Assembly (NCBI RefSeq): GCF_001880325.1
Contig: NZ_CP016312.1
Location: 1,116,001-1,180,000, forward strand
DNA: 64,000 nucleotides
From: Thermus brockianus
GTDB taxonomy: Bacteria > Deinococcota > Deinococci > Deinococcales > Thermaceae
Reading direction: 5' to 3'
Positions 31,795 through 41,393 of this stretch are shown here, one piece after another; the stretch's first letter is position 1; every line of letters begins with the position of its first letter. A program made the translations under genes and the position numbers. The notes beneath the pieces were generated by a model. That model was not told where the DNA came from. It did not search any database and saw nothing but the letters and a program-made list of their open reading frames with translations.

Positions 31795-34071
31795 TTAGGG
31801 ACGGTTGGCGGTCTCCCTTACGATATTGGCGGTTATGACCACCAGGAGTTCCTTCTCCGTGGTGTCCTGGCTACGCTGTTTGAAGAGTTCGCCGATAAGG
31901 GGAATATCCATGAGGAAGGGCACACCCTGTTGCGTCTGGTTGGTTTCCTGGGAGGTAAGCCCCCCTAGGACCACGGTCTGCCCGTCCCGCACCCGCAGGG
32001 TGGTGGTCACCACCTGCTTGGTAAACCGGTCCACATCCCCGTTCACGGGGTTGCGCTGGACGTTGCCGGAAACCTCGGCCTTGATGTTCAGGAGAATCTG
32101 CCCGTCGGCGGTGATCTGGGGAGTGGCCTCCACGATGATGCCGATGTCAAAGGGAACCCGTTCCTCCCGATCGTTCACCACACGGCGGATGAAGAAGGTT
32201 TCGCCCGATTGCAACCGTGCCGTTTGGTTGTTCAACACGAGCTGGTTTACATCCCTGAGGGCACGGGACAGGCCTTGTTTTTGTAGAGCATCTAGGGTCG
32301 CTATGATGTTCAGGCTGGCGAGGCTGCGGGTGCTGTCAAAGATCAACGACAGGCCAGAGCTCAGGATGCTCGCTACCACGTTGCCGCCGGAGATGGTGTT
32401 CCATCGGATTCCCAGGCTACGGCTCAGGTTGGACTGCACCTCTTGGATGCGCACCCTCAGGTTCACCTGGGGCACCGACTGGTCCAGCCGGGGGATGAGC
32501 CCCTCCACTAGGGCCAGATCCTCCTGGGTCCCGGTGACGATGAGGGTGTTGGTGCGCTCGTCCGCCACCACCGTGGCCGGGCGCCGGGTGGGGGTTTGCC
32601 CCTGCCCCTGGCCCTGGGCCTGGCTTTGGGCCTGGAGGGCCTCTTGGAGGACCTTGGCGAGCTCGCTGGCCTTGGCGTTGGAGAGCTGGTAAGCCCGTTG
32701 GAAGAGGGGAGGGCCCTGCTCGGGGGCCCGGTCAATCTGGGCGAGGAGGGTTTCCACCTCGGCCAGTTGCCTCTCCGTGCCCCGCACGGAGAGGACGGGT
32801 TGCCCCGGCACGGTCTGCACCACGATGCCTGGCACCTCCCGGGCCAGGAAGGGGGCCACCTTCTCGGCGTCGGCGAAGCGCAAGGGGTAAAGGCGCCTTT
32901 GCGTGGCCTCCTGGGTGGGGGCGGGGGCCTGCGGGGGCACGTCCACCGCCTTTAGGAGCTCGGCGAAGAGGGCCTGGTCGGCCTCACTGGCCTCCAGGAG
33001 TAGGGCTTTGGGGTTGCTGGGGATGCTTTCCAGGCGGGCCGTGGGAAGTTCCTTTTCCAGAAGGGGCTTTAGGCGCTCCTGGGCCTCGAGGAAGGTGAGG
33101 TTTTGTAGGGCGTAGACCCGGCGCACCTTGGCCGGGGGTTTGGGGACATCGGCGGCCTTGAGGAGCTCGGCCAGGCGGGCGTGGTCCTCCTCCGTGGCCA
33201 GGACAAGGGCCTTTTTGGGGTCCGTGGGCACCACGCTGATCTGGGCCCCGGGCACCTGGGCCTGGAGGAAGGCGAGGAGCTCGGGGAAGGTAGTGTGGGT
33301 TAGGGCGTAGGCCCGCTCCAGGCGGGGCTTGGGCTGGGCCAGGGCGGGAAGGGGCCGGAAGTCAATCCCCGCCCGTTGGAGGATATCGGAGAAGCGGGCG
33401 TGTTGCTCGGGGGTGGCCAGGACGGAGAGGATGGCCTTGAGACGCCCGGCCTCCTCCACCACGATCCAGTTCACGTTGAGCCCGGCGGCCTCCCGGGAGA
33501 GGAAGGGAAGGAGGTCGTTTTGGACCCAGGCTTTGGCGGATTCCACATTGGACACCACCTGGACTTGTCCCCCCTGGCTTTGGATGGCTTGGCGATAGGC
33601 AGCCTCGGGAATCCCCACCACATAAGGCCTGCGCTCCGCCGCCCCGGCGCGGCTTGGGGCGTCCACCAAGGCGGTGATCACCTGGGTGGGGGCCACCACC
33701 ACCACGTCCGGGGGCAGGAAGAGGTAGTCCAGGTTGAACTGGGCCCCGTAGGTGGCGAAGAGGAGGTCCCACACCTCCCGGAAGGGTTTGCCCTGGAAGT
33801 CCAGTTTCACGTTGGGCAAGGGGGGCTGGGCCTTGGCCGGGTCCCCGGAGGCGTCGTAGGCCCGGTAGATGAGGGGCTGAAGGCCCACGCTTTTGGCCAG
33901 GGCTTCCAGGACCACGTCCAGGGGCAAGGTGGCCCCGGCCCGCACCTGGCTCTCCGAAACCTTTAGGTCCACCCTGGCGGCGAAGCGGGGCTCGTCCGGA
34001 AGGCTCCCCGCCAGGGCAAAAAGGCTCAAGCTTCCCAAGGCCCAAATCAAGACCCAAACCAAGGGCTTCAT
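31795..34071 (-). CDS. pilQ: Secretin PilQ, outer-membrane channel of type IV pili and DNA uptake
   Basis: 758 residues from ATG 34071 (a GTG five codons earlier overlaps the pilW stop and is possible). Signal peptide at the N-terminus (KPLVWVLIWALGSLSLFALAG). Several repeated N domains of about 70 residues follow (AYALTHTTFPELLAFLQAQVPGAQISVVPTDPKKALVLATEEDHARLAELLKAADVP and similar). A Gln/Gly-rich linker (SQAQGQGQGQT) precedes the secretin domain (VPQVNLRVRIQEVQSNLSRSLGIRW ... VVLGGLTSQETNQTQQGVPFLMDIPLIGELFK). Thermus PilQ forms the ring needed for pili and natural transformation. Confidence 0.96.
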   Translation of the reverse strand: MKPLVWVLIWALGSLSLFALAGSLPDEPRFAARVDLKVSESQVRAGATLPLDVVLEALAKSVGLQPLIYRAYDASGDPAKAQPPLPNVKLDFQGKPFREVWDLLFATYGAQFNLDYLFLPPDVVVVAPTQVITALVDAPSRAGAAERRPYVVGIPEAAYRQAIQSQGGQVQVVSNVESAKAWVQNDLLPFLSREAAGLNVNWIVVEEAGRLKAILSVLATPEQHARFSDILQRAGIDFRPLPALAQPKPRLERAYALTHTTFPELLAFLQAQVPGAQISVVPTDPKKALVLATEEDHARLAELLKAADVPKPPAKVRRVYALQNLTFLEAQERLKPLLEKELPTARLESIPSNPKALLLEASEADQALFAELLKAVDVPPQAPAPTQEATQRRLYPLRFADAEKVAPFLAREVPGIVVQTVPGQPVLSVRGTERQLAEVETLLAQIDRAPEQGPPLFQRAYQLSNAKASELAKVLQEALQAQSQAQGQGQGQTPTRRPATVVADERTNTLIVTGTQEDLALVEGLIPRLDQSVPQVNLRVRIQEVQSNLSRSLGIRWNTISGGNVVASILSSGLSLIFDSTRSLASLNIIATLDALQKQGLSRALRDVNQLVLNNQTARLQSGETFFIRRVVNDREERVPFDIGIIVEATPQITADGQILLNIKAEVSGNVQRNPVNGDVDRFTKQVVTTTLRVRDGQTVVLGGLTSQETNQTQQGVPFLMDIPLIGELFKQRSQDTTEKELLVVITANIVRETANRP

Positions 34072-34082
34072 AAGGGTTCTTC

Positions 34083-35027
34083 TCACTGACCACCTCCCGC
34101 TTGCGCTTGCGAAACTGCCAGTTCTAACGTTTCCTCTTTCAGGGCTAAGGTGATGCGCTCGCCTTCTATACGGCGCACCACCGCCTCGGTCCCGGGGATG
34201 GGGCTACCCACAGGCAGGACCAGGTAGCCCTCCTTGCTCTCCAGGATGGCCACGCTTACCGGGCCCAAAAGGGTACCGGATAGCTTAAGCCCCTTTTCCT
34301 CCACCAGGGCCTCGAGGGGGGTCTTGGCGGGGCCCTCCGGGGCTTGGCCCGGCGTGGGCGGAGCCTCCTGGGAAGCTTGGGATAAAGGCGCTTCCACGAG
34401 GGCGGTGGGTGGGGCCGGGGCCACGCTGGCCTCCACCGGGGCTTGGGCTACCTGGGCCTTGGGGGTGGGGGTGAGCACCTTGGGGGCGGGAAGGGCCCCG
34501 GAGGTCCCGGGCAGGGGCCTTGGGGCGGTGGCCACCTGGGGCGTGGGCAAAGGGGTGCCCTGGCTCACGCGCACCGGGGCGCCCGTGGGCACCGGCTGGG
34601 GCCGGATGGCTGGGGTGGGGGTGGGCGAGGAGAGGGGCGGGGCCGCCGTGGCCGGAACCTCCACCACCAGGGGTACGAAGGGGTTAGGGGGTGGGGCTTC
34701 CTGTTTGGCTTGGGGCAGGGGGAGAGGGGTGGTCTCGGCTTTGATGGAGGCTTGGGGGGCGGTGGGCGCTGGGGAAGGGGTGGGCGGGGAGGGTTGGCTG
34801 GGGGCGGATTCGGCCAAAGGAGGGATGGGAGGGGCCTCGAGGGCCTTCGGCGTTTCCTCAGCGGGGGCTTGGGGCGTTTCCGCCGCCACCGGCGCCTGGG
34901 CGGGCAGGTAGAAGCCCACGTACCACAAGCTGATGGCCAGCACCAGGAGCAAACCCGCCAAGAGAAGTTTGGTGGACTGGGGCAGGTTTTGCCACGCCTG
35001 GGCGAGGCGCGCGAGGGTTTCCTTCAC
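34083..35027 (-). CDS. pilW: Pilus assembly/competence protein PilW (PilP-like position)
   Basis: 314 residues. A short cytoplasmic N-terminus, one membrane helix (LLLAGLLLVLAISLWYVGFYLP), then about 180 residues very rich in Pro and Ala (a periplasmic spacer), then a C-terminal beta domain (GLKLSGTLLGPVSVAILESKEGYLVLPVGSPIPGTEAVVRRIEGERITLALKEETLEL). In Thermus the gene between pilO and pilQ is called pilW and is required for secretin assembly. It overlaps pilO by 4 nt. Confidence 0.88.
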   Translation of the reverse strand: MKETLARLAQAWQNLPQSTKLLLAGLLLVLAISLWYVGFYLPAQAPVAAETPQAPAEETPKALEAPPIPPLAESAPSQPSPPTPSPAPTAPQASIKAETTPLPLPQAKQEAPPPNPFVPLVVEVPATAAPPLSSPTPTPAIRPQPVPTGAPVRVSQGTPLPTPQVATAPRPLPGTSGALPAPKVLTPTPKAQVAQAPVEASVAPAPPTALVEAPLSQASQEAPPTPGQAPEGPAKTPLEALVEEKGLKLSGTLLGPVSVAILESKEGYLVLPVGSPIPGTEAVVRRIEGERITLALKEETLELAVSQAQAGGGQ

Positions 35028-35632
35028 CGCTCACCTCCTTGGGTTGGCTGGCCCGAGGGCGCGCCCGTCTCTAGGTCCCTGGCCAGCATGTACAGGGTCA
35101 GGGTGAGGCTCGTGCTCAGGATGGGGTTTAGGTCCTGGCCCTGGACGCTCAGATTAATCCCGGAGAGGGAGCTAAAGCGGGAAAGGCCTTCTAGGCGCTT
35201 TAGATAGGCGTAGGTTTCGGGGAAGGGCGCCTCGAGGGACAGGGCTAGGTTCACCGCCCGCACCTCGGGCACGGGGGCCGAGGTGGGGGAGCGGGTGAAG
35301 GAGCGCACCGTTACCCCGCTCCGGAGGGCTTCGCCTAGGATCTCGTTCAGCACCTGGGCGAGCCGTTCCTCCCGGGGAAGCGCCCTTAGGAAGGCCTGGC
35401 GTTCGGCCTGGAGCGCCGCGATGGCCGCCCGGAGTTCCGGGAGGGCCCTTTGGGCCTGGCGCCCCCGGTCCCGCTCGGGGATTAGGGTCTGGATCTCCTG
35501 GCGCACCGTTTCCGTTTCCTGCCGTAGGGGGACGATGAGGAGGAAGTACCAAAGGAGGGCCACCACCACCGTAAGGGCGATGGCGATGAGGGCCCATTCC
35601 CGTTGTCCCAGCCTAGCGAGCACCTTGCTCAC
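35024..35632 (-). CDS. pilO: Type IV pilus inner-membrane protein PilO
   Basis: 202 residues. One N-terminal membrane helix (WALIAIALTVVVALLWYFLLIVPL), a coiled-coil (QETETVRQEIQTLIPERDRGRQAQRALPELRAAIAALQAERQAF), then a ferredoxin-like periplasmic domain (RSGVTVRSFTRSPTSAP, EAPFPETYAYLKRLEGLSRFSSLSGINLSVQG). Pairs with PilN in the alignment complex. Overlaps both neighbours. Confidence 0.93.
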   Translation of the reverse strand: MSKVLARLGQREWALIAIALTVVVALLWYFLLIVPLRQETETVRQEIQTLIPERDRGRQAQRALPELRAAIAALQAERQAFLRALPREERLAQVLNEILGEALRSGVTVRSFTRSPTSAPVPEVRAVNLALSLEAPFPETYAYLKRLEGLSRFSSLSGINLSVQGQDLNPILSTSLTLTLYMLARDLETGAPSGQPTQGGER

Positions 35633-36236
35633 CCCCCACTACGCCCACCCGGGCGCTGAAGGTGTAAAGCCCCCGGTTCTGGTCCAAGGATGCCCCCTGG
35701 AACTCTATGCCGAAGCGGGGCGAGGCTTCAAAGGCCTGGATGAAGCGCACCAAAGCCCCCTGGTTCAGGGCCTCCCCCTGAAGGGTGAACTCCACCCGCA
35801 CCTTCTTGCCGTCAAAGGCCCCGTTTTGCGCCTGCTGGGCCGCTTCCTCTTCCGTGAGGGCCCGGGTACCCACGGAGCGGAGCGCCACGGGGAAGCGCCC
35901 CCCTTCCCGGGGGATCTGGTTGATGAAGGTGGCCAGGTACTCGGACCAGGGGACGAAGTTCTTGCGCAGGCCCTCGCGGATGGCGAGCAGGGCCTCGAGG
36001 GCCTTCCTTTCTTGTTGCAGGCGGTTTTGCTCCTGGATGAAGGGCCTTAACGCCTCCACCTCGGCCCTAAGGGCGTCCCGCTCCTCCTTGGCCAAGGAAA
36101 GCTCGGTGTAGGCGGTGTAGTGGAGGAAGCCCAAGACCAGGAAGACCACCAGGGCGAAGAGGGCCGCCACCAGCCGCCACCAGCCGGGTTCCACCCGACG
36201 GCGCAGGTTCTTGGGCAGGAGGTTTAGCCTAATCAA
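35613..36236 (-). CDS. pilN: Type IV pilus inner-membrane protein PilN
   Basis: 207 residues. The cytoplasmic tail MIRLNLLPKNLRRR carries the conserved INLLP-type motif that binds PilM; then a membrane helix (LVAALFALVVFLVLGFLHYTAY), a coiled-coil, and a periplasmic domain. Overlaps pilM by 8 nt and pilO by 20 nt. Confidence 0.95.
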   Translation of the reverse strand: MIRLNLLPKNLRRRVEPGWWRLVAALFALVVFLVLGFLHYTAYTELSLAKEERDALRAEVEALRPFIQEQNRLQQERKALEALLAIREGLRKNFVPWSEYLATFINQIPREGGRFPVALRSVGTRALTEEEAAQQAQNGAFDGKKVRVEFTLQGEALNQGALVRFIQAFEASPRFGIEFQGASLDQNRGLYTFSARVGVVGGEQGAR

Positions 36237-37362
36237 GGGGACTCACCCCCCTCAAGGCCAGGCCCACGGGCACCATGAGCTCAGCCCCTGCTTCCCGCAG
36301 CTTCTCCAGGTCAAAGCGCTTGGGGTCTATCTGGACCCCGTTCCAAGGGTCGGGTACCAGGAAGTTGACCCCTAGGGTGTCGGTGAGCAAGGTGCTAAGC
36401 CCCCGTAGCCGGCTTCCCCCGCCATAGAGGTAACCCACCTCGGGCTGGATATCCCCGAGTTGCACCCGGAAGAACTCCAAACTACGGCGGATTTCCTGGG
36501 TCAGCTCCACCAGAACGGGCCGGATGGCGTCGTAGATGCGGGCGGGGCTATACCGCTCCCTTTCGGCATCAAAGTCCAGGAGGAGTTCCTCGTCCTCGGT
36601 GGGGATGGTGGCGAGGCCATAGGTGCGCTTGACGTCCTCGGCGGTGAGGAAGTCCAGGCCGAAGCTCTTGGCGATGGCCTCGGTGAAGTCCTTGCCCGAA
36701 AGGGTGAGGAGGCGCACCGCCAAGGGGCGGTCCCCCCGGGTGAGGACGAGGCTCGTGCTTTCCGCCCCGATTTCCACCGCCACCACGGTGCGGTCGGGCT
36801 CCCGGTTCAGCTCTTCCTCCAAAGGGTAAAGCCCGGCGAAGGGTTTGACATCCAGGACCACGGGGGTGAGCCCCGCTTCCCGCAGGGCCTCTATGAGGCT
36901 GGCCACGGCTTCCTGGCGTGCCGCCGCCACCATGACCTCCATCTGTTCCCCCTCGGCCACCTCCGCCAAAGGGTCCAGGGGAGCGAAGTCCAGGACGACC
37001 TCGTCAATGGGGAAGGGGATGTAGCGCTCCGCCTCCCATCGCACAGCTTCCTCCATCTCCTTGGGAGGCATCTTGGGCACCTGGAGGGTGCGCAGGATGA
37101 GGGCGGGATTGGGCACGGCGCTCACCACGTACCGCTTCTTAGTCCGGGCTTCGGCCAGGAGCTCGCGGATTTCCTGGGCCAAAGTACCGGGTTCCCGGAC
37201 CACGCCGTCCACCACGGTGCCAGGAGGAATGGAGCGGGTGGCGTAGGCCCTGAGCGTTGGGGGGTGGCCGGAAAGCTCCACCAGCTTGAGGCTGGAGGCC
37301 CCCACCTCGAGGCCCAACGCTTCCACCCGAGGTCTAAATAACTTGCTCAAACCCGAGAACAC
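36229..37362 (-). CDS. pilM: Actin-like pilus assembly ATPase PilM
   Basis: 377 residues. FtsA/actin fold: ALGLEVGASSLKLVELSG, VVDGVVREPGTLAQEIRELLAEA, VVAVEIGAESTSLVLTRGDRPLAVRLLTLSGKDFTEAIAKSFGLDFLTAEDVKRTYG, YLYGGGSRLRGLSTLLTDTLGVNF. First gene of pilM-N-O-W-Q, started by GTG 37362 behind AAGGAGGTG. Upstream, TTTCTC-N16-TATATA on the minus strand is a plausible promoter in an AT-rich gap. Confidence 0.95.
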   Translation of the reverse strand: MFSGLSKLFRPRVEALGLEVGASSLKLVELSGHPPTLRAYATRSIPPGTVVDGVVREPGTLAQEIRELLAEARTKKRYVVSAVPNPALILRTLQVPKMPPKEMEEAVRWEAERYIPFPIDEVVLDFAPLDPLAEVAEGEQMEVMVAAARQEAVASLIEALREAGLTPVVLDVKPFAGLYPLEEELNREPDRTVVAVEIGAESTSLVLTRGDRPLAVRLLTLSGKDFTEAIAKSFGLDFLTAEDVKRTYGLATIPTEDEELLLDFDAERERYSPARIYDAIRPVLVELTQEIRRSLEFFRVQLGDIQPEVGYLYGGGSRLRGLSTLLTDTLGVNFLVPDPWNGVQIDPKRFDLEKLREAGAELMVPVGLALRGVSPLD

Positions 37363-37554: not shown

Positions 37555-38559
37555 TCAAAGCGCCTTGAGGGTTTCCACCACGGCGCGGGTGAAGGCCTCC
37601 GTGGTAGCATTCCCCCCTAGGTCAGGGGTGCGCGGGCCTTTTTCCAGGACCAGATCCACCGCCCTTTCCACCTTTTTGGCTGCCTCCTTTTCCCCGAGGT
37701 AATCCAGCATCATGGCGGCGGAAAGAATGGTGGCCGTGGGGTTGGCGATGCCCTTGCCGGCGATGTCCGGGGCGGAGCCGTGGACGGGCTCAAACACCGC
37801 CGTGGTATCCCCGATGTTGGCGGAAGGGGCTAACCCCAGGCCCCCCACGAGCCCGGCGGTGAGGTCCGAAAGGATGTCCCCCAGGAGGTTGGTGGTGACG
37901 ATTACGTCAAAGCGTTCGGGACGCATGACGAGCTGCATGGCGCAGTTGTCCACGATGATGTCCTGTACGTTGACCAGAGGGTAGTCCTTGGCCACCTCCC
38001 GCACCGTGTCCAGGAAAAGGCCCTGGGTTACAGGAAGGACGTTAGCTTTGTGGGCGATGTGGAGCATCTTGCGGGGACGGCTTTCCGCAAGCTTCAAGGC
38101 CACGCGCCCGATGCGCTCGCTGGCCTTCTTGGAAATCACGGCGTCGGCGATGGCCACGTCTAGGTAGCGCCGCTCCTGTTCCACGTAAAGGCCTTCCGTG
38201 TTCTCCCGCACGATGATGAGGTCCACCCCAGGGCGGCTTCCCGGGATGGGACGGCTCTTGGCGGGACGGACGTTGGCGTAAAGGTCCAGCCGCCGCCTCA
38301 GGTAGCGGATGGCCCCGAAGAAGCCCGGTACCTTGCGGGTGGGGCTGGTGGCGGCCCCGAAGAGGGTGGCGTGGCAAGAGAGGATCTTCTCTACGGTTTC
38401 CTCAGGGACGGAGGTCCCTCTTCGCTCAAAGGTTTCCCAGCCGGCTTCGGCCTCCACGAACTCCAACGGGAGCCCGGTGGCCTCTAGGACTTTCCTGGCG
38501 GCGGGCACCACCTCGTGCCCGATGCCGTCTCCTTCAATCAAGCAGATGCGGTACGCCAT
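37555..38559 (-). CDS. hicdh: Homoisocitrate dehydrogenase (lysine via alpha-aminoadipate)
   Basis: 334 residues. Beta-decarboxylating dehydrogenase fold: [128 protein letters not shown]. The substrate-loop sequence (SPTRKVPGF...[14 protein letters not shown]) is the form of the T. thermophilus homoisocitrate/isocitrate enzyme and not of isopropylmalate dehydrogenase. It acts in the bacterial AAA lysine pathway. Confidence 0.94.
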
Positions 38560-38628: not shown

Positions 38629-39258
38629 TTAGGCCCGCAGGGCCAAGAGAAGCCAAACAAGGGCCAGATACAGGAGAACCCGCAATGCTTGCTCCCGGCG
38701 GGTGAGGCGCGGGCGGCTAGACTTTAGGGCCCCTTCCACCACCACCCCCCCGATGCCCAACAGGATGAAGAGGTCCCCCGGGCTCACCACCTTGCGCAAA
38801 GGGGGTAGAGGAATCACGTCCCCCAGGAAGGGGAGGCGGGTGGTCTCGTCTAACAGGGCGTGCACGGCATCGCCCTTGGCCTGGACAACGGGCACGAAGT
38901 CCCCGAGGCCTACCCGTTCCAGGGCCTCGGCGCTCACGGGCATGTGCCCCCCGTTGGCGAAAATGACGGCGGTATTAAGAAGGAGCCCCACCAGGACCAG
39001 GTAAAGGCTTTTGAGATGGCGGTTTTGGTAGAGGCCGTAGCCCACCAAGAGGAGGACCACCAACTTGGCCAAAGGCCCCGCCCACTCCGGTTGGAAAAGA
39101 CCCCGGTAGGTGCCGTAGGCGAGCCCTCCCTCCACCAAGGCGGCGAGGAGGAAGGCCCAAGGGGCCTTTAGGTCTATCCCTCCGAGGTCCTTGGGCCGGA
39201 CTCCGAGGGCGAGGGCGAGTCCGAGGCCAAAGAGAGCTGCGGCGAGGTAGAGCGTAAT
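38629..39258 (-). CDS. DUF5317-type membrane protein with a probable ATT start codon
   Basis: 209 residues. Five or so hydrophobic segments with MPVSAEALERVG in the middle, the pattern of DUF5317; function unknown. The only ATG/GTG/TTG-type starts (near 39138) would delete the first membrane segment, ITLYLAAALFGLGLALALG. An AAGGAGG (39272-39266) stands exactly 7 nt before ATT at 39258-39256, in frame, so ATT is the likely start. The gene overlaps the end of the HD-GYP gene by 85 nt in another frame, consistent with translational coupling. Confidence 0.75.
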   Translation of the reverse strand: MTLYLAAALFGLGLALALGVRPKDLGGIDLKAPWAFLLAALVEGGLAYGTYRGLFQPEWAGPLAKLVVLLLVGYGLYQNRHLKSLYLVLVGLLLNTAVIFANGGHMPVSAEALERVGLGDFVPVVQAKGDAVHALLDETTRLPFLGDVIPLPPLRKVVSPGDLFILLGIGGVVVEGALKSSRPRLTRREQALRVLLYLALVWLLLALRA

Positions 39259-40604
39259 AAGGATCCCTCCTTTGCTGCGAGGTAGGTTTCCCGGTCACGC
39301 CAGATGGGGTTTTGCTCCCAAAGTTGGGTGAAGAGGCGGACCAGGTCGGGGTCAAACTGGCGGCCGGAGTTCTCTTGAACCTCCTTTAGGGCTTCCTCGG
39401 GCGTGAGTGCCTTCCGGTAAGGGCGCCCGGCGGTCATGGCCTCGTAGGCGTCCGCCAGGCCCACGATGCGGGCCTCGTCTGGGATGTTGTGCCCGGCGAG
39501 GCCCTTGGGATAGCCCCGCCCATCCCAGCGCTCGTGATGGTGGAGGATAACCCGGTAGACCAGGTCGTCAAAAGCTACTTTCCGGGCTGGGGAGAGGAGT
39601 TCCACCCCCTTTTGCGGATGGCTTTGGATAAGGGCGTACTCCGCGTCCGTGAGGTTTCCGGGCTTCAAGAGCACTGCTTCCGGGATGGCGATTTTGCCAA
39701 TGTCGTGAAGCCTCGCCGCCCGGTAGATGTCCTGGGCCTTGGCCTGGTCCTTGTAGAAGGCCAGGGCCAGGTCCCGGGAGATATCCGCCACGCGCTCGGA
39801 GTGGAAGCGGGTTTCCTGCTCTTTGGCCTCCAGGGCGTTCATCAGGACTTCCAGGGTGGTATCAAAGGCCTGTTCTAGCCTGACCTTCTCATCCCAGTAG
39901 AAGCGGCTGTAGTAGAGGGGGATGAGGAACATAAGGACAGTCCACCCCCCCCAGTTGCCGATAAGGGGCGTCTCGTAGGCCCGGGCCAGGAGGAGGGCGA
40001 GGGGGGAGAGGAGGATGTAGCTGAGGGCAAGCCAGTTAAAGTTTTTTCGCCAGACTTCTGTAAAAGGGGTACCACTATCTAGGTGGATTATGTACGTTAC
40101 CGATCCGATATTCGCGACAAAAAAAGCCAGGGAAGCCAGAACAATGCCAAAAGCTGCGCTCAGATTCCAGCTCCCTAGCCAGAGGGGGTTTTCCTGAAAA
40201 AAGGTCCACACCAGGGCAGCGAAAGCCGTGGCAAGCCCATCTTGCGAGCGGTTGAAAAGTTCTTTGTACCAGACGCTTCCCCCCCATTGCGCCAAAAAAG
40301 CGACCAAAGGAGCCACCCAGGGTGGGGTAAGGATAAGTAGCGCGAGCGCGAAGAGAAAGAGTTGGCTCATGCCCGCACTCAGAGGTAAACGAACTTCTAC
40401 CCTGACACTCCAAAAAACCAATCCGGCCCAGAAAATTAGGTCCCAAATGTTTAACTGGAGGGGCTTGTCTTTGTATTGCCAAAAGAGGTAAGCTTCTAAG
40501 GCCGCAAAGGCTGCGAAGCAACCGAGAACAAAGAGAAGGATGCGCAAGGGTGGTACATCTACGCCTTTGCTTTGCAATAACCTCTTTAAGCTTGGGAGTG
40601 CCAC
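39174..40604 (-). CDS. Membrane-bound HD-GYP domain protein (c-di-GMP phosphodiesterase type)
   Basis: 476 residues from GTG 40604. The N-terminal half has about eight membrane segments (a MASE-like sensor region). The C-terminal half is an HD-GYP domain: HSERVADISRDLALAFY, AARLHDIGKIAIPEAVLLKPGNLTDAEY, IQSHPQKGVELL, HHHERWDGRGYPKGLAGHNIPDEARIVGLADAYEAMTAGRPYRKAL. All metal ligands and the GYP motif are present. It probably hydrolyses c-di-GMP, which in Thermus could influence pili or biofilm; the pil operon is about 2 kb away (inference). Confidence 0.92.
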   Translation of the reverse strand: MALPSLKRLLQSKGVDVPPLRILLFVLGCFAAFAALEAYLFWQYKDKPLQLNIWDLIFWAGLVFWSVRVEVRLPLSAGMSQLFLFALALLILTPPWVAPLVAFLAQWGGSVWYKELFNRSQDGLATAFAALVWTFFQENPLWLGSWNLSAAFGIVLASLAFFVANIGSVTYIIHLDSGTPFTEVWRKNFNWLALSYILLSPLALLLARAYETPLIGNWGGWTVLMFLIPLYYSRFYWDEKVRLEQAFDTTLEVLMNALEAKEQETRFHSERVADISRDLALAFYKDQAKAQDIYRAARLHDIGKIAIPEAVLLKPGNLTDAEYALIQSHPQKGVELLSPARKVAFDDLVYRVILHHHERWDGRGYPKGLAGHNIPDEARIVGLADAYEAMTAGRPYRKALTPEEALKEVQENSGRQFDPDLVRLFTQLWEQNPIWRDRETYLAAKEGSLLRSTSPQLSLASDSPSPSESGPRTSEG

Positions 40605-40610
40605 GCTATG

Positions 40611-40616
40611 AGGATA
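40611..40616 (-). promoter_or_regulatory. -10 box of the HD-GYP gene (leaderless)
   Basis: TATCCT on the minus strand lies 6 nt before the GTG at 40604. It decides this start against a 31-codon upstream extension, which would run back through the terminator of the small-peptide gene. Confidence 0.6.
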
Positions 40617-40627
40617 GCATGCTCTGA

Positions 40628-40661
40628 GGAAAAAGGAAAACTGGCCAGAAACCTGGCCAGT
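40628..40661 (-). terminator. Terminator of the 29-residue peptide gene
   Basis: Perfect 9-bp stem ACTGGCCAG / CTGGCCAGT with a 4-nt loop (40640-40661), 4 nt after the stop codon, followed on the minus strand by TTTTCCTTTTTC. Confidence 0.88.
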
Positions 40662-40665
40662 TCTT

Positions 40666-40755
40666 TTACCTCCAGTGAGCGCTAGCCCCAGCTGCAAGCC
40701 CGAGAGCGATCAGAGAGCCGATGAGCGTCAGAGCCTTAGCGATGAGCTTCTTCAT
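40666..40755 (-). CDS. 29-residue signal-peptide-like or single-helix membrane peptide
   Basis: Not an annotated family. ATG 40755, AAGGAGG with an ideal 7-nt spacer (40769-40763), stop at 40668-40666. The product starts MKKLIAKALTLIGSLIALG and ends LAAGASAHWR: two lysines, a long hydrophobic helix, and an A-S-A-type signal peptidase I site leaving only three residues. It is therefore either a tiny membrane peptide or a secretory signal with almost no cargo. A consensus promoter (40812-40841) and an intrinsic terminator directly behind it make a complete transcription unit, which strongly supports a real, highly expressed gene. Confidence 0.72.
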   Translation of the reverse strand: MKKLIAKALTLIGSLIALGLAAGASAHWR

Positions 40756-40811
40756 CTTCATCCCTCCTTTTCCTCAGCTTCCGGGGGGTCGGCCCCGTTT
40801 GCTTGTCTTTC

Positions 40812-40841
40812 ACTTTAGGGGGGGTCTGTCAATACTGTCAA
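40812..40841 (-). promoter_or_regulatory. Strong promoter of the small-peptide gene
   Basis: Perfect TTGACA (40841-40836), 18 nt, TAAAGT (40817-40812). A second TTGACA lies at 40832-40827. The predicted leader of about 50 nt contains a GGGG-CCGA-CCCC mini-hairpin before the ribosome site. Confidence 0.8.
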
Positions 40842-41207
40842 GAGGGGAAGAATAGATATCTACACGATAAAAACTGCCATTACCGCCACATAAACTTGGA
40901 ACGACGAAGATTTACACTACCCAGCCTAGCACAAGGCCTGCCAGCTGGGTAGAGGTCCTGGTTTGGGGGGGAACCTTCCGGGTTGGGGGAATACGAGGAA
41001 CAACAAAGAGGCCCGTGGGGCTAACTACCCCACGTGGCCCCAATGGCCCGCTTTAAATGCAACCCCAGAATACACCGGCAATACCCAAAAAATGCGAATC
41101 CGCCGAAAATTTACTGCCCCAAATGCACACCCGGAATTAGGGAATTTTGCCGCAGGTTCCCACCCCCTTCAGGTTTAGTTTAGCAAGAAGGGGGACCGGG
41201 GCAAGGG
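40842..41207. other. A+T-richer intergenic stretch with two hairpins, no gene recognised
   Basis: About 365 nt without a credible coding frame on either strand; base and codon use of the short open frames is unlike the neighbours. It holds a long hairpin CTACCCAGC (40917-40925) / GCTGGGTAG (40944-40952), and an interrupted GGCC-GTGGGG / CCCCAC-GGCC hairpin at about 41010-41039. Visibly lower G+C than the rest of the window. It may be an untranslated leader, a decayed insertion or a non-coding RNA; nothing in it decides. Confidence 0.4.
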
Positions 41208-41239: not shown

Positions 41240-41315
41240 TGGTGCCGAGGGGCGGAATCGAACCGCCGACACTGCGATTTTCAGTCGCATGCTCTACCAA
41301 CTGAGCTACCTCGGC
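41240..41315 (-). tRNA. tRNA-Phe (GAA)
   Basis: 76 nt with encoded CCA. Acceptor GCCGAGG/CCTCGGC, D arm GCTC...GAGC, anticodon stem-loop TGCGA-CTGAAAA-TCGCA with anticodon GAA, T arm GGCGG-TTCGATT-CCGCC. Only 1 nt separates it from tRNA-Asp upstream. Confidence 0.98.
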
Positions 41316-41316
41316 C

Positions 41317-41393
41317 TGGCGGCCCCGACGGGACTCGAACCCGCGATCTCCCACGTGACAGGCGGGTGTGTTAACCAACTACACCACGGGGCC
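41317..41393 (-). tRNA. tRNA-Asp (GTC)
   Basis: 77 nt with encoded CCA. Acceptor GGCCCCG/CGGGGCC, anticodon loop CTGTCAC with anticodon GTC, T loop TTCGAGT. First gene of the two-tRNA unit. Confidence 0.98.

Follow-up and report, generated by a model that had tools for sequence, protein, structure and literature searches.

A conserved 29-residue membrane peptide of Thermus, probably a partner or signal of the adjoining MASE9-HD-GYP phosphodiesterase

The 64-kb stretch of Thermus brockianus DNA that was analyzed as a whole, designated the window, raises the question of whether a reading frame of only 29 codons is a gene and, if so, what its product does. A reading made from the letters alone (the sequence-only reading) had described a promoter, a ribosome site, a short frame and a terminator, each of which was found on the minus strand. 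It had also proposed a small exported or membrane peptide with its own transcription unit, a view that is supported. The constant pairing with a downstream gene was not part of that reading. The results given below indicate that the peptide is probably a dedicated small partner or signal of the adjoining MASE9-HD-GYP sensor.

The peptide gene and its transcription signals

The features of the unit, in the order of transcription, were:
40842-40860, minus strand: element GATATCTATTCTTCCCCTC / GATAYCTATTCTT, directly upstream of the -35 box
40841-40836 (-35) and 40817-40812 (-10), minus strand: promoter TTGACA-N18-TAAAGT
40776-40803, minus strand: stem-loop in the 5' leader, in a similar place but with a different sequence in nearly every genus
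40769-40763, minus strand: Shine-Dalgarno sequence AAGGAGG, 7 nt before the ATG at 40755
40755-40666, minus strand: peptide frame of 29 codons plus stop, MKKLIAKALTLIGSLIALGLAAGASAHWR, conserved and under purifying selection
40628-40664, minus strand: intrinsic terminator, a 12-pair stem (40664-40637) with a T-rich tail
40611-40616, minus strand: -10 box TATCCT of a leaderless promoter, 6 nt ahead of the GTG start of the phosphodiesterase gene

An upstream ATG at 40761 would give a 31-residue version of the peptide. The 29-residue start was nevertheless taken as correct because the ATG at 40761 is only 1 nt from the AAGGAGG and, in a comparison of relatives, was missing in G027 and G046 (GGGATAAAGATG). 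The window has 805 start codons that open frames of 20-40 residues, 48 of them with a Shine-Dalgarno match. Among the 805, the peptide frame was the sole case that combined a Shine-Dalgarno sequence, an N-terminal lysine or arginine and a membrane core, and it alone among those candidates also had a promoter.

The element upstream of the -35 box was kept in most Thermus, in G049 and, in diverged form, in two other genomes, and may serve as an UP element or as the site of a regulator. A regulon defined by the element was rejected, since only a single copy was present in the genome when up to three mismatches were allowed. The 5' stem-loop was read as an mRNA stabilizer. Further upstream, two tRNA genes lie on the same strand as the peptide (window 41243-41393).

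All 58 loci had an inverted repeat within 45 nt downstream of the frame, and 53 of them a T-rich tail; the sequences were unrelated. A TAnnnT box was located 6-10 nt before the start of the phosphodiesterase gene in nearly every assessable genome (14 nt in one genus), a layout that, judged from the sequence, would be that of a leaderless transcript. With a -10 box of its own for the downstream gene and a terminator between the two genes, the peptide constitutes a separate unit, which is probably more strongly expressed than the phosphodiesterase gene.

These signals also bear on the possibility that the frame is a leader peptide, whose translation would determine whether transcription passes the terminator and enters the phosphodiesterase gene. 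The frame is short, the terminator is close behind it and the downstream gene is on the same strand every time, as an attenuator would have it. However, the separate -10 box of the phosphodiesterase gene disfavors attenuation, the conserved amino acid identity covers the membrane core rather than a regulatory codon run, and the terminator stems vary in sequence and position among genera. An attenuator is therefore improbable.

Distribution and selection

Of 50 Thermaceae genomes, 49 had the peptide in a six-frame search. Phylum-wide searches found it in 11 of 14 genomes of the sister family, where the two weakest matches were confirmed by their neighbor gene, and in no further family of the phylum. 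Among named genomes, a narrower alignment matched five Thermus species, which identifies the family of the 50 genomes (f1) as Thermaceae. Neither Pfam nor NCBIfam gave the peptide a match at cut-off, no PDB family matched it, and a search for a phage or plasmid origin gave no match. There was one copy per genome, with two exceptions. G029 has a divergent paralog, and in G017 the peptide and MASE9 locus occurred on two contigs (G017:C1 and G017:C2; L074 and L075) that were identical near the peptide, through either recent duplication or an artefact of assembly.

The length was 29 residues almost everywhere, 30 in G001 and in one sister-family genus, and the consensus was MKKxxxKxxxLxxSLVALGxAAGAxxxWx. 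Nearly all members had lysine or arginine at positions 2, 3 and 7, followed by a hydrophobic core of about 17 residues, and no member had a cysteine. In the 57 sequences tabulated, L15, A17, L18, G23 and A24 were invariant and A21 and A22 nearly so, while the tail was loose; L18 was replaced by methionine in G062 and G067. For 25 Thermus sequences, dN/dS was 0.29 over the whole peptide; residues 2-24 gave 0.21 and the tail 0.44. The third codon position was the most variable in all three groups, which together with the dN/dS values identifies the frame as a protein-coding gene.

The sequence-only reading had named the finding that would instead point to a small RNA, an unconserved frame between a conserved promoter and terminator; in fact, the frame was conserved. 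A small RNA with an incidental frame would account for the compact promoter-to-terminator unit and for the conservation of the 5' leader within Thermus. It does not account for the selection on the codons or for a frame and length that hold across genera when the leader and terminator sequences do not, and there was no Rfam match over the unit. The small RNA, an extremely improbable explanation, was rejected on the grounds that the reading frame and not the RNA is what is conserved.

The neighboring MASE9-HD-GYP gene

The genes that follow the peptide in the window were:
39174-40604, minus strand: MASE9-HD-GYP membrane c-di-GMP phosphodiesterase, the constant neighbor and likely partner
38629-39294, minus strand: DUF5317 membrane protein, the usual third gene, an open frame whose start is not fixed
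37555-38559, minus strand: isocitrate/isopropylmalate-type (homoisocitrate) dehydrogenase (HICDH), next in the ancestral block
31795-37362, minus strand: pilM-pilN-pilO-pilW-pilQ, type IV pilus, named by position and by comparison with PMC8578077

The gene immediately downstream, on the same strand, encoded MASE9-HD-GYP in 57 of the 57 peptide genomes in which the contig continued, a count that leaves out the contig ends in G021, G015 and G066. ORF clustering likewise placed this neighbor beside the peptide in nearly all loci. The range of MASE9 in the searches was that of the peptide, except for second copies in G029 and G039 and one distant match in f5; apart from that match, the other families of the phylum had neither peptide nor MASE9. 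No MASE9 was found on plasmids.

The ancestral order was peptide, MASE9-HD-GYP, DUF5317, HICDH, pilMNOWQ, aroC and aroK, with upstream neighbors that vary between genera. HICDH and the pil genes were gone from the site in G005, G009, G011, G013 and G017, and in G058 DUF5317 was gone too, but the pair stayed in each case. The DUF5317 frame, present in both paralogous modules, overlaps the last part of the phosphodiesterase gene; its product is perhaps a third component.

A second, divergent MASE9-HD-GYP and DUF5317 module was found in G029 (G029:C1:936508-936990, L155). Directly upstream of its phosphodiesterase gene, which appears frameshifted, was a divergent peptide, VNRQVFRSLVWALGLVAMAVAAGGGWVW, that aligned without gaps and agreed at R3, R7, L15, A17, A21, A22, G23 and W28. 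It outscored every other profile match in the 8-kb locus, but its own score was weak (E about 0.2).

The sole Thermaceae genome without the peptide was G039, in which a deletion spans the upstream region and extends into the N-terminus of MASE9. As a single event, this is a joint loss and does not establish dependence. The tRNA region noted above adjoins the deletion. The same genome has a second MASE9-HD-GYP and DUF5317 (G039:C1, L140, 3501-5143). No peptide was visible at this copy, which has a transposase-like gene immediately upstream.

In G048, the MASE9 region is interrupted about 330-1220 nt after the peptide, itself intact, by an insert of about 0.9 kb whose opposite strand bears a transposase-like frame. 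The phosphodiesterase was frameshifted in G018, G025 and G042, again with an intact peptide. These four broken phosphodiesterases could reflect recent damage or errors of assembly, or else a peptide with an independent role. An independent microprotein would have some other function in the envelope, and its adjacency to the phosphodiesterase gene would be due to an old, rarely rearranged block. Besides the four genomes, the separate -10 boxes, the terminator between the genes and the conservation of the block with HICDH and the pil genes in many genomes agree with such a role. On the other side, the pair outlasts loss of the block, its members have the same phylogenetic range and a paralogous pair occurs in G029, so that an independent function is considered unlikely.

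The phosphodiesterase carries MASE9 (PF20972) and an HD-GYP domain with a Pfam HD_5 match. The catalytic residues (HD and HHExxDGxGYP) and the fold of HD-GYP phosphodiesterases were both present, and H301, D302, H357, H358, D362 and G365-Y366-P367 were invariant in 29 sequences. In an AlphaFold2 model with a mean pLDDT of 84, the best fold match was the HD-GYP domain of PA4781. Among the ECF S-components that the N-terminal membrane half of the model resembled was TmRibU, with an E-value of about 0.04, a probability of 1.00 and a target TM-score of about 0.6; since the E-values of this half are modest, the likeness is only a lead. The literature searched yielded no paper on MASE9, no ligand for it and nothing useful on small proteins or mapped transcripts of Thermus. 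PilF, the motor of the T. thermophilus pilus, binds c-di-GMP, and abolition of c-di-GMP in this species reportedly lowers twitching and surface attachment (PMC12024867, PMC11731258).

Membrane segment, proposed role and known systems

The sequence-only reading had placed a signal peptidase site at A24-S25-A26 with three residues behind it. This site was ruled out because position 26 is not conserved, alanine being present in only 27 of 57 sequences. The -3/-1 rule is instead satisfied in 57 of 57 sequences by A22-G23-A24 (A24, with alanine or valine at 22), so that any cut would fall after A24. The predicted cut would leave five residues, six in one genus, of which the fourth, residue 28, is aromatic (W, F or Y in all). 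The peptide could be released and used as a message, as that reading had also suggested, but with the cut after A24 and not at the site first proposed.

In its present form, the message would be a pentapeptide, xxxWx (SAHWR here), released from a secretory precursor by signal peptidase I. MASE9 would sense the pentapeptide from outside, so that c-di-GMP breakdown would track cell density or type. The uniform agreement with the -1/-3 rule, the aromatic residue 28, the differences in the tail among many species, and the adjoining gene for a receptor-like protein whose membrane half is like a ligand-binding fold are all in accord with an exported signal. However, 1) the dN/dS of the tail, although higher than that of the core, is below 1 and diversifying selection was not seen in Thermus, 2) the strongest conservation falls in the part that would be discarded, and 3) the length is almost fixed. 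An exported signal is rather unlikely, and its more specific form, a species-specific xxxWx autoinducer read by an ECF-S-like MASE9 that directly gates c-di-GMP hydrolysis, is decidedly doubtful. If the autoinducer did exist, it would provide a one-step communication from peptide to c-di-GMP in Thermus and its relatives, tied to pili and competence.

In the same genomes, conservation was higher in the membrane part of the peptide (mean identity 0.60) than in the signal sequence of PilQ (0.38), which suggests that the peptide does more in the membrane than serve export. A conserved face of the helix was suggested but not significant (p about 0.08).

The favored explanation, held with moderate confidence, is that the product is a 29-residue membrane microprotein, a partner of MASE9-HD-GYP that sets the rate of c-di-GMP breakdown. 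The pairing of the peptide with the phosphodiesterase is well supported; the mechanism, with translation of the frame, binding, the direction of the effect and the link to the pilus, is inferred. Made from its own strong, terminated transcript, the peptide would span the membrane once as a helix of about residues 8-24, with the N-terminus held inside by the charges of K2, K3 and K7 and the aromatic residue 28 at the outer interface. The uncut peptide would stay in the membrane, pack against the ECF-S-like MASE9 domain and set the rate at which the HD-GYP domain degrades c-di-GMP. Type IV pili, encoded by pilM to pilQ just downstream, would be the probable target. Linkage of the peptide and phosphodiesterase genes is not proof of function, since the ancestral block also includes unrelated-looking genes.

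An enzyme that degrades c-di-GMP can, as the pair suggests, have a microprotein dedicated to it, and the MASE9 sensor domain gains a concrete candidate. How T. thermophilus sets c-di-GMP is now directly testable. The locus also illustrates that near-universal genes of fewer than 30 codons are discoverable by reading the sequence.

Several known systems resemble the peptide in part. The type I toxins TisB, Ldr and Hok are short hydrophobic membrane peptides. A toxin or stress peptide, among the candidate roles offered by the sequence-only reading, was unsupported, and a toxin was rejected: unlike the type I toxins, the Thermus peptide is normally single-copy, near-universal in the clade rather than patchy, and paired with a signaling enzyme. 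No antisense unit was seen at the locus, the opposite strand of which had no promoter-like site, and the Rfam search over the unit gave no match.

Streptococcal and enterococcal pheromones, short hydrophobic peptides and lipoprotein-derived peptides, share with the Thermus peptide a signal-sequence-like precursor of 20-30 residues, and the streptococcal gene is likewise beside that of its receptor. The pheromone receptors are cytoplasmic regulators, whereas the putative receptor here is a membrane c-di-GMP enzyme. The small companions of ECF-type S-components, such as CbiN, offer another likeness, a small membrane protein beside what the model suggests is an ECF-S-like fold, but here there is a fold match only, and CbiN is longer, has two spans and is part of a transporter.

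The closest parallel to the proposed action is MgrB, which in enterobacteria inhibits the sensor kinase PhoQ (PMC10576120, PMC8404706). MgrB is a membrane protein of 47 residues and acts on PhoQ through transmembrane contacts (PMC10576120). The Thermus peptide would likewise be a very short single-span protein acting on a membrane sensor. No sequence relation to MgrB was seen and the Thermus peptide is without the two-cysteine periplasmic loop; moreover, the partner is a MASE9 HD-GYP phosphodiesterase, and the gene is adjacent, with its own promoter. By analogy, the favored view is that the Thermus peptide, although outside the MgrB family, works on its phosphodiesterase as MgrB does on PhoQ.
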